Positions 55,805 through 60,364 of a stretch of DNA of 64,000 bases are shown piece after piece. The position numbers were made by a program, and so were the translations under genes. The notes below the pieces were generated by a model that searched no databases, was not told where the DNA came from, and saw nothing but the letters and a program-made list of their open reading frames with translations. Origin of the DNA: Flavobacteriaceae bacterium (GTDB lineage: Bacteria; Bacteroidota; Bacteroidia; Flavobacteriales; Flavobacteriaceae); contig JAPOSZ010000027.1 of assembly GCA_026709415.1 (NCBI GenBank), positions 62,001-126,000 on the forward strand, given 5' to 3'. Numbering within the stretch: the first letter of the stretch is position 1; each line of letters starts with the position of its first letter.

Positions 55805-56086
55805 TTAAACTTTTGTTGAATTTCCAATGAAGCCAATACACATCAGTATCCCAAAAACCTTCGCAGGATGTGGATTTTGGTTTTTAATTTTTTCTAAACG
55901 TAACAACTCCCTTTTATAGATTTTCCTTTTTTCAACTTTTGATTTTCCATGTTTTTTAACCTTCCATTTTATGTCTTCTAACATTCTATCTTCTGAGTAA
56001 TGCAATCGCTTTTGATTCCCATTGTATGGAAATCCAGTACCTAATCCAAGAGATTGAAACATCCTAAAATTTATCAAACGCATCAC
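55805..56086 (-). CDS. Hypothetical basic protein, 93 residues
   Basis: A lysine-rich frame with LHYSEDRMLEDIKWKVKKHG and RKIYKRELLRLEKIKNQNP in the middle, looking like charged helices, followed by a hydrophobic end VFGILMCIGFIG. No known domain. It sits between the broken and the intact AbiEii-type genes and could be part of the same degraded insertion. Confidence 0.35.
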   Translation of the reverse strand: MMRLINFRMFQSLGLGTGFPYNGNQKRLHYSEDRMLEDIKWKVKKHGKSKVEKRKIYKRELLRLEKIKNQNPHPAKVFGILMCIGFIGNSTKV

Positions 56087-56100
56087 AATTTACAAAAAAC

Positions 56101-56109
56101 GGGGGGGGG
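56101..56109. repeat. Homopolymer of nine G
   Basis: A run of nine G in an otherwise AT-rich stretch, 15 bases upstream of the start of the hypothetical gene at 55805-56086 (minus strand). Such tracts can slip during replication. It is outside any supported coding region. Confidence 0.5.
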
Positions 56110-56321
56110 TAGTAGTGAAGGGGTATGTCAAGTAATAATAAAAAAGGGGATTATATACTAAAGTGGCAAAGACTAAAATGAACTGACCATTAGGATAGTG
56201 GTATTCAATGTTAAAGGTTCAAGCCTAAAAAATATTAAAGAAATACATCATTTGAATCAAGCGATGATTGATTCATAACCAGCTGATTTATCAAAATAAA
56301 GAACGTATTCATGGGATTGGT

Positions 56322-57278
56322 TTAATAATCAATATTTCTTGGTGCTAAAGGATCGACGGAATGATTTGGTGCATCCGCATGAATGGCTGTTTTTAAACGG
56401 TTTAATAATTTTTGATAACTCGATGGCCTTTCTTTTTTCAATAACATGACATGTTGTTGCTTCCATAGGATACTTGGGTAACCTAACCAATCATAACGAT
56501 TTAACCGATTCCCTTGTTTAAAATCCAATAAAAATTGTTTATCCTTTTCAGTCAAAGCGCTTAGTAGCGTATTCAACAGTTGTTCAAACGTTTCTTGATA
56601 TTGTTTTTCTACTAAAGGACTTTCAAATAACCCGGCTATTTCTTTTCGGATGGGATTTCTTCGATGTTCTATTGGAATTAAAAAATGATTAGCTATAGAA
56701 TTGTTGTTACTGAGTATGGCATAAAAAAACCCTTCTTTGATTTTTTCATTAAAGGACGTGTGTTGAAAAATTTGATGCACATCAAATAAATCTCGCACTA
56801 ATTTTCGGGATAAAGCGGCCGAAAATTTACCACCAAAAACTTGTTCTTTAGGACAACATCGCATGTGAATATCTTTCTTGAAAAAAGCTTTGGCTTTGGG
56901 ACTTAATGATAATACTTCTGGCTTTGAAATCGTGCCTCGCATTGAACGATTAGGTTCTATTTTAATGCGAGTCCCCTGTTGTTCGATGATGAGTTTGGAT
57001 GATTTATATTTTTTTTGGATCCTGACATTCGGCATCTCTGTTTGTATTTCTTTGGCTATTTCAGTCAGGGCTTTATTGATTTGGTGGACGCCTTGTCCAA
57101 ATGGTTCGTGTATCGGTAAGTAGGTTAAATCAATATCAATCGATAAACGAGGCATATTGAGGATAAAAAAATTTAATGCCGTACCTCCATGCAATGCAAA
57201 ACATTCTTTTTTCAAAAAAAAAGGCATCATATCTAACAATAATGTTGATTGCTTGATAACTTCTTTTGAAAAGGACAT
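56322..57278 (-). CDS. AbiEii-type nucleotidyltransferase toxin
   Basis: A 318-residue protein of the AbiEii/AbiGii family. HGGTALNFFI (GG at 31-32) and SIDIDLTYLP with D48 and D50 form the nucleotidyltransferase centre; KEQVFGGKFSAALSRKLVRDLFDVHQIF is the family's second block. Such toxins transfer nucleotides, in studied cases to tRNA, and stop growth of infected cells. The gene starts five bases after the end of its antitoxin partner. Confidence 0.88.
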   Translation of the reverse strand: MSFSKEVIKQSTLLLDMMPFFLKKECFALHGGTALNFFILNMPRLSIDIDLTYLPIHEPFGQGVHQINKALTEIAKEIQTEMPNVRIQKKYKSSKLIIEQQGTRIKIEPNRSMRGTISKPEVLSLSPKAKAFFKKDIHMRCCPKEQVFGGKFSAALSRKLVRDLFDVHQIFQHTSFNEKIKEGFFYAILSNNNSIANHFLIPIEHRRNPIRKEIAGLFESPLVEKQYQETFEQLLNTLLSALTEKDKQFLLDFKQGNRLNRYDWLGYPSILWKQQHVMLLKKERPSSYQKLLNRLKTAIHADAPNHSVDPLAPRNIDY

Positions 57279-57283
57279 CGGGA

Positions 57284-58099
57284 TTAATAATCAAACCGTT
57301 CTTGTGGAAAATCGACTTCTTTCACGGAGTGGGGAATTAAGAGTCGATATTTTGGATCATAAACACCGCCTTCGTAAGGACTTGGTGACAACATCCCTTT
57401 TCCTAGTGGGATACGCGATACATCCAAATCATCAAACCAGGCGACTTCATTTTGTTCCGCAAAACTCAAAAAGAGCCTTTTGACTTTATAGGATTGACAC
57501 TGCTCTAATAAAACTTGCATTAAATCCGTATCTATATCGTCTGGAAACACCAGACATTCGATGTTTTGATAGCACTCGGCCAAAGAGATCTTTTGAGGGG
57601 CTTGATGCAAACATTCAAGAGTCGCCCGTTCTACAGAGGAAAACCACATCCCGTTGGATTGATTTTCATGTGATACCAGGCCTAGATCAGGGGGTAGAAA
57701 ATGGGTCCGATGATAGGCCTTATCACAAGGCCAATCCATATGTTGGAACCATGACGGAATAGTGGTATCTAATCGAGAAAAAAGCCATACTTCGGAAAGA
57801 TGAGAATAGATGTAATGGGTTCTTTGGTGAAGGATTAAAGCGGTGAGCCCCCCGACATGAACGGGTTTGTTTTCTTGTTGTTGGATGACTGCAATAGCAC
57901 GGAATAATCCCGGTTTTTGACGACCGACATACCAAGCTCCTCGACCGAATGGAGTGATGGTTTGTTTCTTTTTTTCTTTTTGTAATAACGCATTCGATAG
58001 ACCATGGCGGTTCAAATAAGAAGTGGTAAATAAATTGTCGTTCGGATGATTCTTTAAAAAGGACTGTAATTTCAATTGGAATAGTTTACTAATCAACAA
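57284..58099 (-). CDS. AbiEi-type antitoxin / transcriptional regulator
   Basis: A 271-residue protein with a TTG start. The N-terminus has a winged-helix pattern (LNRHGLSNALLQKEKKKQTI) followed by HVGGLTALILHQRTHY and ERATLECLHQAP, as in AbiEi antitoxins, which repress their own operon and neutralise AbiEii. A TATATTTG sequence immediately upstream resembles a -7 element but would leave almost no leader. Confidence 0.82.
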   Translation of the reverse strand: MLISKLFQLKLQSFLKNHPNDNLFTTSYLNRHGLSNALLQKEKKKQTITPFGRGAWYVGRQKPGLFRAIAVIQQQENKPVHVGGLTALILHQRTHYIYSHLSEVWLFSRLDTTIPSWFQHMDWPCDKAYHRTHFLPPDLGLVSHENQSNGMWFSSVERATLECLHQAPQKISLAECYQNIECLVFPDDIDTDLMQVLLEQCQSYKVKRLFLSFAEQNEVAWFDDLDVSRIPLGKGMLSPSPYEGGVYDPKYRLLIPHSVKEVDFPQERFDY

Positions 58100-58372
58100 A
58101 TATAATATAATTAATGAAATATGAACTTCACAAAAAAAAGTAGGGAGTTGTTTCTCTTGAATCCATGTTAGCCTTTGCCACTTCGGTATATAATTCGCAT
58201 AAATTGACTGATCTTCTTGATTTTCATTCGATCTACGAAAATTTTATGTAATATAGTATATAGTAGTTCCCCTATTTATTAATCTTTTTAGATAATTTCA
58301 AACACGTTTCTCAAAGAATCAACCAATTAATTTCAGTCTAATACAAAAAAGATTTATTTAGGCTTAACAGGT

Positions 58373-58993
58373 TTAATAGGACAATTCATTTTTTTTTTTC
58401 AGCCCTCTTTCTTTAACGAATTTTGAAACAGTTAGTCTATGCACATTTAAAATTCTAGATATAGCACTATATGAAACTCTTTTATCTAGTAGTTCTTTAA
58501 TTTGTTTCTCCTTTCCTGTTAATTTGGTTTTTGATGATTTACTACCTTTAGGTCTCCCAAGAATAACCCCTTCTGCTTTTTTCCGAGCTAATGCTTCTTT
58601 TGTTCTTTGTGAAATGAGATTTCTTTCGATTTCAGCTGAAAGTCCAAATGCAAATGCTAAAACTTTTGAATTGATGTCATTTCCTAATCGATAATTGTCT
58701 TTGATTGTCCATAACTGAACTTCATTTTTCATACACTGGTTAAGTACACCCATAATCATCAAAAGATTTCTTCCTAATCGAGAGAGTTCAGTGCAAACCA
58801 ATATATCATCTTTTTTCAGTCTTTTAAGAAGTCTACCAAGTTTACGATCTTCTATGTTTTTCGCTCCTGAAATAGTCTCTTTTATCCATCTGTCTACAAC
58901 TAAAGTTTCTTCTTGGCAAAACCTATTAATTTCAAATCTTTGATTTTCAACAGTTTGTTTATCTGTGCTCACTCTTATGTAACCATAAACCAT
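58373..58993 (-). CDS. Serine recombinase (resolvase/invertase)
   Basis: A 206-residue small serine recombinase. The nucleophile S9 lies in YIRVSTDKQ, followed by LSRLGRNLLMIMGVL and AEIERNLISQRTKEALARKK; the C-terminus GRPKGSKSSKTKLTGKEKQ leads into a helix-turn-helix. The size and order match Hin/Pin invertases and transposon resolvases. It lies about 370 bases from a palindromic junction inside a scrambled restriction gene, which may be its target site. Confidence 0.9.
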   Translation of the reverse strand: MVYGYIRVSTDKQTVENQRFEINRFCQEETLVVDRWIKETISGAKNIEDRKLGRLLKRLKKDDILVCTELSRLGRNLLMIMGVLNQCMKNEVQLWTIKDNYRLGNDINSKVLAFAFGLSAEIERNLISQRTKEALARKKAEGVILGRPKGSKSSKTKLTGKEKQIKELLDKRVSYSAISRILNVHRLTVSKFVKERGLKKKNELSY

Positions 58994-59157
58994 TTTATTA
59001 CTTTTTTGTTATTTCAAGATATGTAAAATTAGATTCTACAAAAGTCATCTCCTATTTGGATTGAAATTACTAAGTAGATTTCGCATAATTTTTCAAAGAC
59101 ATCGTTGTTGTTCAATTATAGAAACTAGAATAGTCTTAAACTGACGCTTTTAATTGA
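58994..59157. other. Intergenic region next to the recombinase
   Basis: AT-rich DNA between the recombinase start and the inverted methyltransferase fragment. No gene or clear recombination-site repeat was found. Confidence 0.3.
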
Positions 59158-59376
59158 CCTATTTTACGCGGCAAAGACATCAGAAAGTATGGCTACAAGT
59201 TTGCTGATAAATACCTAATTAATACTCATAATGGAGTCAAGTCTTTAGGGATTAACCCTATAGATATAACGGATTATCCAATTGTAAAAGAACATTTAGA
59301 TCAGTATTTTGATGCTTTAGTTAAAAGACAAGATCAAGGATTCACTCCATATAACTTGAGGAATTGTTCATATATG
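59158..59376 (+). pseudogene. Inverted C-terminal fragment of a type IIG methyltransferase (TaqI_C domain)
   Basis: The plus strand encodes PILRGKDIRKYGYKFADKY, LINTHNGVKSLGIN and PIVKEHLDQYF...GFTPYNLRNCSYM, the conserved start of the TaqI/Eco57I specificity domain. There is a stop just upstream and no start codon. The family-like sequence ends inside a palindrome, beyond which the same DNA on the other strand encodes the N-terminal part of such an enzyme. It is therefore a displaced, inverted piece, not an independent gene. Confidence 0.75.
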
Positions 59377-60364
59377 GACAATTTAAAGTTGCAAAAAACA
59401 AGTTCTGAAGAATCGCCTTGTAATAAATACTTTCATAATCCTCTTTTCTGACTAAAATACTTTCCAACTCAGGTTCATATTCATTTAAAACAGAATTTTT
59501 TAATTCATTAATGTCAAATAATTCATCTGGAACAAGTCCTTTTTGTTTGATGAACCAAACGAATAATAAACGCGTTAGTAGTCGAATAAGATTAACTGAT
59601 TTGTGCTCTTTGATTAAATCTTCTAATTGAACACCTTTTTCGATAGCATCAATAGATTCAGGCTCATTAGGAAAGGTTACGTGTTTTAATGCCCAGAAAT
59701 ACCAATGAGATAATTCCGTATAAAATGATTTATTGAGTACTTGAATATTAAATTCCTTACCCCAATATTCATTGAGTTGTTTAAGTGTAGTAACGTTTTT
59801 ACCATGAATACTAAGTCTATTGAGAATATCTATGTGACCCCGATGTGGGTTTTCGATGTTGATATCTTTTAAAAGTGTAATCTTTCCTATTTTTTCTCCC
59901 TCACGCCAACTCTGTTTATATTCTGATCGTGACGCATGTGAAAAAGTGATAAATGAGTTTTTGTTATCACTATAATTAAAGACAACGACTACAGGACGGC
60001 TATTAAACTCACGATTTAATGATCGAGTTAACTCTGATAGTTGTGTTCTATTTGGTAAGAGTTGATATTGCCTTTGCTTTAATCGAATCGCAAAAACAAC
60101 CAACGCATCATAATTATTTTGGTCAATCTTACTTTTTTCAACTTCAAGATAATTATCACTGAATACATCGTCTAAGACGAAACCAACCAAATGTATCTCT
60201 TCAATCAAATGGAAGGCCTCATTATCTTTCCATGTATTTTTTAAAATTTCTCTTTTATCCATTGGATCAGAGTCCGTCAAAGAACGAATCCGAATATCCA
60301 GATTCTCAAAGAAGATTATTGTAGCGTCAGCTAACGATTGATCATTAAAATAAGTAAGGTCCAT
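59342..60364 (-). pseudogene. N-terminal part of a type IIG (Eco57I-like) restriction-modification protein
   Basis: A 340-residue frame. It contains VFNYSDNKNSFITFSHAS, ELSHWYFWALKHV, RLLTRLLFVWFIKQKGLVPDE and YYKAILQNLFFATLN, the region that precedes the methylase core in these large enzymes. After ATLN the family sequence stops and a short unrelated tail ends at 59342. The AdoMet site and NPPY motif, about 700 residues further on, are absent. The start is one base after the helicase stop, so it was the second gene of a helicase-methylase operon. Confidence 0.78.
59364..59381. repeat. Near-perfect 18-base palindrome at the gene junction
   Basis: TTGTTCATATATGGACAA differs from its reverse complement at two positions. 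It lies exactly where the plus-strand specificity fragment and the minus-strand methyltransferase fragment meet. This symmetry and position fit a crossover site of the nearby serine recombinase. I did not find a second copy in the window. Confidence 0.5.

Follow-up and report, generated by a model that had tools for sequence, protein, structure and literature searches.

Probable decay of an invertible-specificity methylase locus beside a Mpi-family invertase gene in a Flavobacteriaceae bacterium

The stretch of Flavobacteriaceae DNA analyzed here (the window: 64,000 nt, G000:C17:62001-126000, from a 2.66 Mb genome of 34 contigs that is 95% complete) probably carries a decayed invertible-specificity locus, in which the core of a recombination site in a silent cassette, site B, was joined by deletion to the N-terminus of a methylase through a 4-bp homology (TGGA), leaving the methylase dead. 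The locus is organized as a Mpi-family invertase (-), a silent inverted recognition cassette (+), an Eco57I-type methylase (-) and an HKD-SNF2 helicase (-). Where relatives have kept the locus intact, inversion at three points within the coding sequence (C, A, and B) would let the invertase trade recognition-domain halves between the gene and the convergent cassette. Such half swaps would change the target specificity, and recombination of A with B would turn the gene off. In the present genome, the deletion would have cost the gene its own recognition domain and about 690 methylase residues, and the cassette its second half. The architecture, the sites, the natural recombinants and the deletion end-points could be read from comparison with related loci, as detailed below.

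The locus and its intact counterparts

The locus was flanked by trpA and a radical-SAM gene (names inferred from translations), and its features are listed in Table 1. The window recombinase is, by its sequence, a Mpi-family serine invertase, with a score above the cut-off of 272 bits for NF009949 ("master DNA invertase Mpi family") and a match to the resolvase catalytic domain (PF00239). Copies 74–81% identical adjoin invertible methylase genes in other genomes, and comparison of sites and recombinants suggests that the Mpi-family enzyme inverts DNA at paired sites and would perform the exchange. A second Mpi-like invertase, about 75% identical and split over two frames, was located at G000:C27:158646-159383 (L041 4654-5393) and had no adjoining methylase. 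The AbiE pair was bracketed by a 31-nt inverted repeat (56150-56180 and 58164-58194, 87% complementary); related units of 26–45 nt elsewhere in the same genome and in several contigs of the genome G001 suggest a small dispersed repeat.

Table 1. Features of the locus, in window positions.
Feature	Position	Strand	Basis
AbiE genes, near the recombinase	56322-58099	-	window
Mpi-family serine DNA invertase, 206 aa, apparently intact	58373-58993	-	PF00239 3.2e-34; NF009949 345.6 bits
Candidate invertase site A (GCTTTTAATTGACCTATTTTACGCGGCA); cassette/gene homology begins here	59146-59173	+	leave-locus-out site model
A-to-B module ("NTHNG" type) of the silent inverted cassette, covering the first half of the recognition domain	59160-59378	+	G001 C109, 99.5% identical
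TaqI-type TRD fragment ORF, GKDIRKYGYKFADKYLINTHNG...NLRNCSYMDN	59170-59381	+	window ORF
18-nt near-palindrome, by-product of the junction	59364-59381	.	unique in own genome; in neither G001 parental sequence
Deletion junction, where methylase N-terminal sequence adjoins the left half and core of site B	59366-59393	+	G001 comparison
Methylase N-terminal ORF, homologous to the intact gene up to ...NLFFATLNCP	59342-60364	-	window ORF
Eco57I/type IIG-like methylase N-terminal fragment, ~330 aa, core and recognition domain deleted	59375-60364	-	G001 C38 identity
HKD (PLD)-SNF2 helicase, partner gene, intact, 1106 aa	60366-63686	-	PADLOC C3a139 HKD+Snf2 2.2e-76
Perfect GGAGGATTTT within the helicase gene, high site score	62203-62212	+	site model

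The methylase fragment was 100% identical to residues 1–331 of the intact gene on contig C38 of G001, a near-identical genome of the same genus. The Eco57I-type N6A methylase core with its NPPY motif, present in the intact G001 gene (PF07669) and in relatives, was lost from the window copy. Because these ~690 core residues and the recognition domain are deleted, the methylase cannot work; it is dead in this assembly, and the helicase and the invertase are intact. The TaqI-like C-terminal recognition domain (PF12950) was found in the gene and cassette of locus L065, in the cassette of L098 and in an alternative C-terminus of L062, and the 71-aa half-domain of the window alone fell below a PF12950 match. 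Structure prediction, meant to show whether the two halves form separate lobes, had a mean pLDDT of 41, too low to use. The label "type IIG" is based on PADLOC and Pfam matches to the methylase and recognition domains, and the N-terminal fragment had no Pfam or PADLOC match to an endonuclease domain; the nuclease may come from the separate HKD-SNF2 protein. Such a helicase adjoins the methylase in L007, L008, L010, L062, L065, L134, L136, L139, and L177, and was not seen in the examined stretches of L135, L138, and L098.

Three contigs of G001 were informative. C38 contained the same helicase and an intact methylase of 1036 codons, open to the contig end, and the window matched it at 99.8% identity over 8.2 kb. 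C109 was 99.6% identical to window positions 55852-59384 and stopped just past ATGGAGGATTTT. C64 represented a second haplotype of the same place. Its plus strand bore a complete recognition cassette, its minus strand the recombinase and a convergent type IIG gene whose N-terminus was different, and there were further half-cassettes. The cassette and recombinase had the same orientation in G001 as in the window and, since the cassette is intact in the G001 contigs, its opposite orientation is ancestral and did not arise from the window junction. The A-to-B module of the window was 99.5% identical to that of C109, 93% to that of C64 and about 61–63% to those of L176 and L177 (222 nt), with an A-to-B spacing of 220 nt in each of these copies. 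C64 (L038 9924-13040) and C38 (L039) had a DUF7149/DUF7814 and a helicase-linked N-terminal architecture, respectively, at the same genomic place and were 83% identical over a shared C-terminal stretch of ~220 aa; these different systems appear to have exchanged C-terminal specificity modules. An apparent partial tandem duplication of the region around site A put the C64 methylase out of frame there (L038 9940-9990).

Relatives were found by searching family, class, and viral collections with the window recombinase. An invertase of the same kind adjoined convergent methylase gene/cassette pairs in L062 (G025, one contig), L065, L071, L098, L135, L138 (at a contig end), and L139, and L134 and L136 showed the same invertase and architecture more loosely. 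Most of these relatives also carried the HKD-SNF2 helicase beside the methylase, and L176 and L177 had exactly the order and orientation of the window. A gene and a convergent silent cassette, together with inverted repeats and the recombinase, were present in L065, L071, L098, L139, L135, L175–L177, and G001 C64, and the window copy has lost one arm by deletion. Intact inverted pairs with long inverted repeats were seen in L062, L065, L071, L098, and L139; the repeats measured 62 nt (perfect) in L062, 306 nt with a perfect stretch of 118 nt in L065, and 321 nt at 95% in L139. When L065 8907-9997 was inverted in silico, an equally full-length ORF with the other recognition domain was obtained. 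There was no methylase beside the invertase relatives at L133 (a contig end), L137, and L140–L143. The viral-collection contigs L114 and L117, which carried relatives of Mpi-like invertases, had several short inverted repeats (TGACCCTCAAAAGTACAAGG) and may represent a different kind of shufflon. The earlier note on this DNA, made from the window alone, had proposed a type IIG-like gene with an invertase-family recombinase belonging to it and a broken (off) system, which was borne out; it had named a fixed arrangement without any recombinase in relatives as the finding that would speak against its reading, and the relatives with the arrangement do carry the recombinase.

Natural recombinants among the relatives confirm exchange at the points C, A, and B. 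In L098, the A-B module was precisely inverted inside the gene; its reversal in silico between the hybrid sites restored both canonical sites and a 1309-codon open frame, so that the inversion is an apparent off state. The Bacteroides finegoldii plasmid gene NZ_OY725960 (L144) had a backbone 98.7% identical to L098 and contained a 541-bp segment 99.6% identical to the opposite-strand cassette of L098, with the switch near C and the return to the gene-strand second half at B. Across loci, the NTHNG first half was paired with YPNMT or WKRIG, and the TFPS first half with YPNMT, YPDIC or W(G/N)xIS. Such pairings are the pattern expected of half-module shuffling at B, to which homologous recombination could add, and the exchange would probably change the specificity.

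Candidate sites C, A, and B

A DNA motif of about [CG]TTATT-N5-GATTTT was present at the three points C, A, and B in the gene and the cassette. All half-cassettes started at GGAGGATTTT in G001 C64, and likewise in L065, L071, and L098, while site A lay at IRP(I)LRG and site C at LSDFV, where the DNA was similar to that of the GGAGGATTTT point. Protein conservation does not explain the resemblance between the sites, because the GATTTT element at A is in a different frame from that at B and C. A site model of 28 positions was built without the locus under test, with training on a few loci. Sites A and B were the top of ~33,000 positions in held-out L065 and L071, the known sites led in L098 and L038, and the model picked up C unprompted in L065 and L098. 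Sites were also recovered in L135, L138, and L139, which lay outside the model training. In the window, the leave-locus-out model placed site A second and the deletion junction fifth among 127,944 positions, half of the junction being by descent a true site B. The motif was not present at the repeats of L062, L134, and L136, which lie elsewhere (62 nt at NPPYG in L062; 114–128 nt at ~74%). The GGAGGATTTT inside the helicase gene had a score equal to that of true sites and was also found in G001; its recombination with the cassette site B would remove the start of the methylase and the end of the helicase.

When methylase C-termini from across the phylum were scored, only L146, L147, and L156 were high at both A and B beyond the already known L145 and L149. 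Their flanks (L175–L177), fetched afterwards, contained an invertase (74–81% identical) and an inverted cassette in three out of three cases; an inverted second match had been visible beforehand for L156, and nothing was known of L146 and L147 before flank retrieval. Neither an invertase nor an inverted cassette was found in the flanks (L178 and L179) of two genes without a scoring B site. Codon conservation as the cause of the motif was rejected at A, where genes with near-identical peptides but without a high-scoring B were mostly low (control median 5.5, in a set that still included three genes later found with an invertase). One gene (L173/L178) scored 21 at A with no invertase nearby, and no B was found in it. 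Site A of the species' own gene had diverged (ATTACTTCG vs ATTTTRCG), and this divergence may already have hampered shuffling.

The junction and its probable origin by deletion

The minus-strand methylase N-terminus and the plus-strand TaqI-type fragment abut as first described, meeting at 59375-59378 with the recombinase adjoining, and the gap to the recombinase is ~370 nt, as the earlier note gave it. The plus-strand piece had been taken for the end of a specificity domain; it is instead the front half, consisting of exactly one A-to-B module, and the right-hand cassette edge at the junction is the core of site B. The sequence at this point is ATATATGGAGGATTTT in G001 C109, TTTTATTGGACAATTTAAAG in G001 C38 and ATATATGGACAATTTAAAG in the window, TGGA being common. 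The window junction (AATTGTTCATATATGGACAATTTAAAG) matches the cassette (CATATATGGAggatttt in G001) as far as TGGA, and onward from TGGA it matches the methylase N-terminus (tttatTGGACAATTTAAAG in G001), which identifies it as a deletion with 4-bp homology. Compared with G001, the methylase has lost its own recognition domain and at least ~2.1 kb of its core, corresponding to residues ~334 to ~1026 in the G001 protein, and the cassette lacks its distal half. The earlier note had put the loss at ~700 residues, either deleted or lying elsewhere; the deletion stands, and a displaced piece does not, as a search of all 34 contigs found no methylase core elsewhere in the genome.

The deletion may have been an aberrant event of the invertase, which is about as likely as a plain microhomology deletion. 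The methylase N-terminal partner (TTTTATTGGACAATTT) was site-like, ranking 3 of 3,096 positions with the A+B model and 22 of 3,096 with B alone, a partner partly preselected by TGGA, of which there are 11 positions on that gene strand. The case for an invertase error is moderate, because the sharing of TGGA already narrows the choice of partner. An ordinary microhomology or slippage deletion, independent of the invertase, has slightly less than an even chance and would leave the reading of the rest of the locus unchanged. The 4-bp homology suffices for such a deletion, although its left end falls exactly in the site B core and, as modest support for the invertase, its right end scores well as site-like on that gene strand.

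An assembly chimera is a less probable source of the junction, and on balance unlikely. The cells would then carry an intact locus in several cassette states, and the assembler or a gap closer would have mis-joined site B to the methylase N-terminus. The G001 assembly does break at the same spots, with C109 ending right after GGAGGATTTT and C38 starting in the region of site A, where 55 nt are common to C64, as expected of a mixed locus; these contig ends at A and B would fit an active switch in a mixed population. However, the two sides share 4 bp only, too little for a k-mer misjoin, and the junction lies inside a contig of 134,858 bp. The lack of the methylase core in all contigs also argues against a chimera, though a repeat-broken piece might remain unbinned. 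The deletion is presumably fixed in the cells, though the junction may instead be a minority variant.

It is very improbable that the plus-strand fragment is a decayed gene duplicate, functionally unlinked to the recombinase. The fragment is indeed truncated and non-functional in this genome, but the invertase, inverted cassette, and methylase recur together in many genera, with a common DNA site in different reading frames and with natural recombinants.

The near-palindrome at the junction is present as first noticed, with 2 mismatches to its own reverse complement, and exists only because AATTGTTCAT of the cassette now faces ATGGACAATT of the gene. It was rejected as a recombination site, being absent from both parental sequences in G001 and having a single copy in the genome, where the second copy that the earlier note proposed to look for was sought and only the palindrome itself and one chance match with 2 mismatches were found. 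The least credible explanation is therefore the one first put forward, that recombination at the palindrome, which spans the junction close to an invertase gene, flipped part of the gene in this genome, since relatives already carry an intact plus-strand cassette with the minus-strand gene and the recombinase, and a flip would not remove the methylase core.

Relation to known systems

The decayed switch favored here resembles phase-variable type I systems with inverting hsdS, e.g., in Streptococcus pneumoniae (PMC4948785), in that site-specific recombination would trade the recognition domains of an expressed gene for those of silent, inverted copies. It differs from them in that a single-chain Eco57I/type IIG-like methylase, partnered by an HKD-SNF2 protein, has the recognition domain as its C-terminus, that HsdM, HsdS, and HsdR are lacking, and that the sites are inside the methylase coding sequence. 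In the BREX system of Lactobacillus rhamnosus, PglX is reported to have a partial second copy with a site-specific recombinase in between (PMC7513527). The combination of a full methylase, a partial copy, and a recombinase is similar, as is, distantly, the methylase domain, whereas the window-type exchange apparently occurs in two half-modules by a Mpi-family enzyme. The methylase scored 86.2 bits for PglX, far below the BREX cut-off of 500 bits, and no other brx or pgl genes were recognized by eye among the ORFs flanking the locus. For DISARM, which is additionally defined by drmA and drmB, the helicase scored 125.6 bits for DrmD, below the cut-off of 610 bits.

Mpi of Bacteroides fragilis, which inverts promoters of surface polysaccharide loci, belongs to the same NCBIfam equivalog family as the window recombinase. 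The apparent targets of the window-type enzyme, in contrast, are sites in coding sequence. Phase variation of type IIG enzymes in Campylobacter jejuni is an on/off change through tract length, whereas the window type would rely on inversion and swapped specificity. The C. jejuni enzyme was reported by Anjum et al. (2016; cited in PMC5903667). Gene-altering programmed inversions (Milman et al., 2023; cited in PMC11892184) represent the general class of coding-sequence inversions to which this switch would belong. A literature search for inverting type IIG systems returned no direct match, the key papers being outside its reach.

Inversion is a well-documented means of specificity switching in type I systems; in the present case it would operate in single-chain methylase/helicase defense systems. 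It is an even question whether the following holds across the Bacteroidota: that Mpi-family invertases shuffle two recognition half-modules in single-chain methylases at three coding-embedded sites (C, A, and B), giving several specificities and an off state (A with B), and that a deletion joining a true site to a pseudo-site occasionally kills the gene, as would be the case in the window. With a definable DNA site, switching methylases, the number of their specificities and their off states could be predicted from sequence alone, and the motif has already served to predict an invertase beside the gene in three unseen genomes. The window illustrates how a specificity switch of this kind can be lost.
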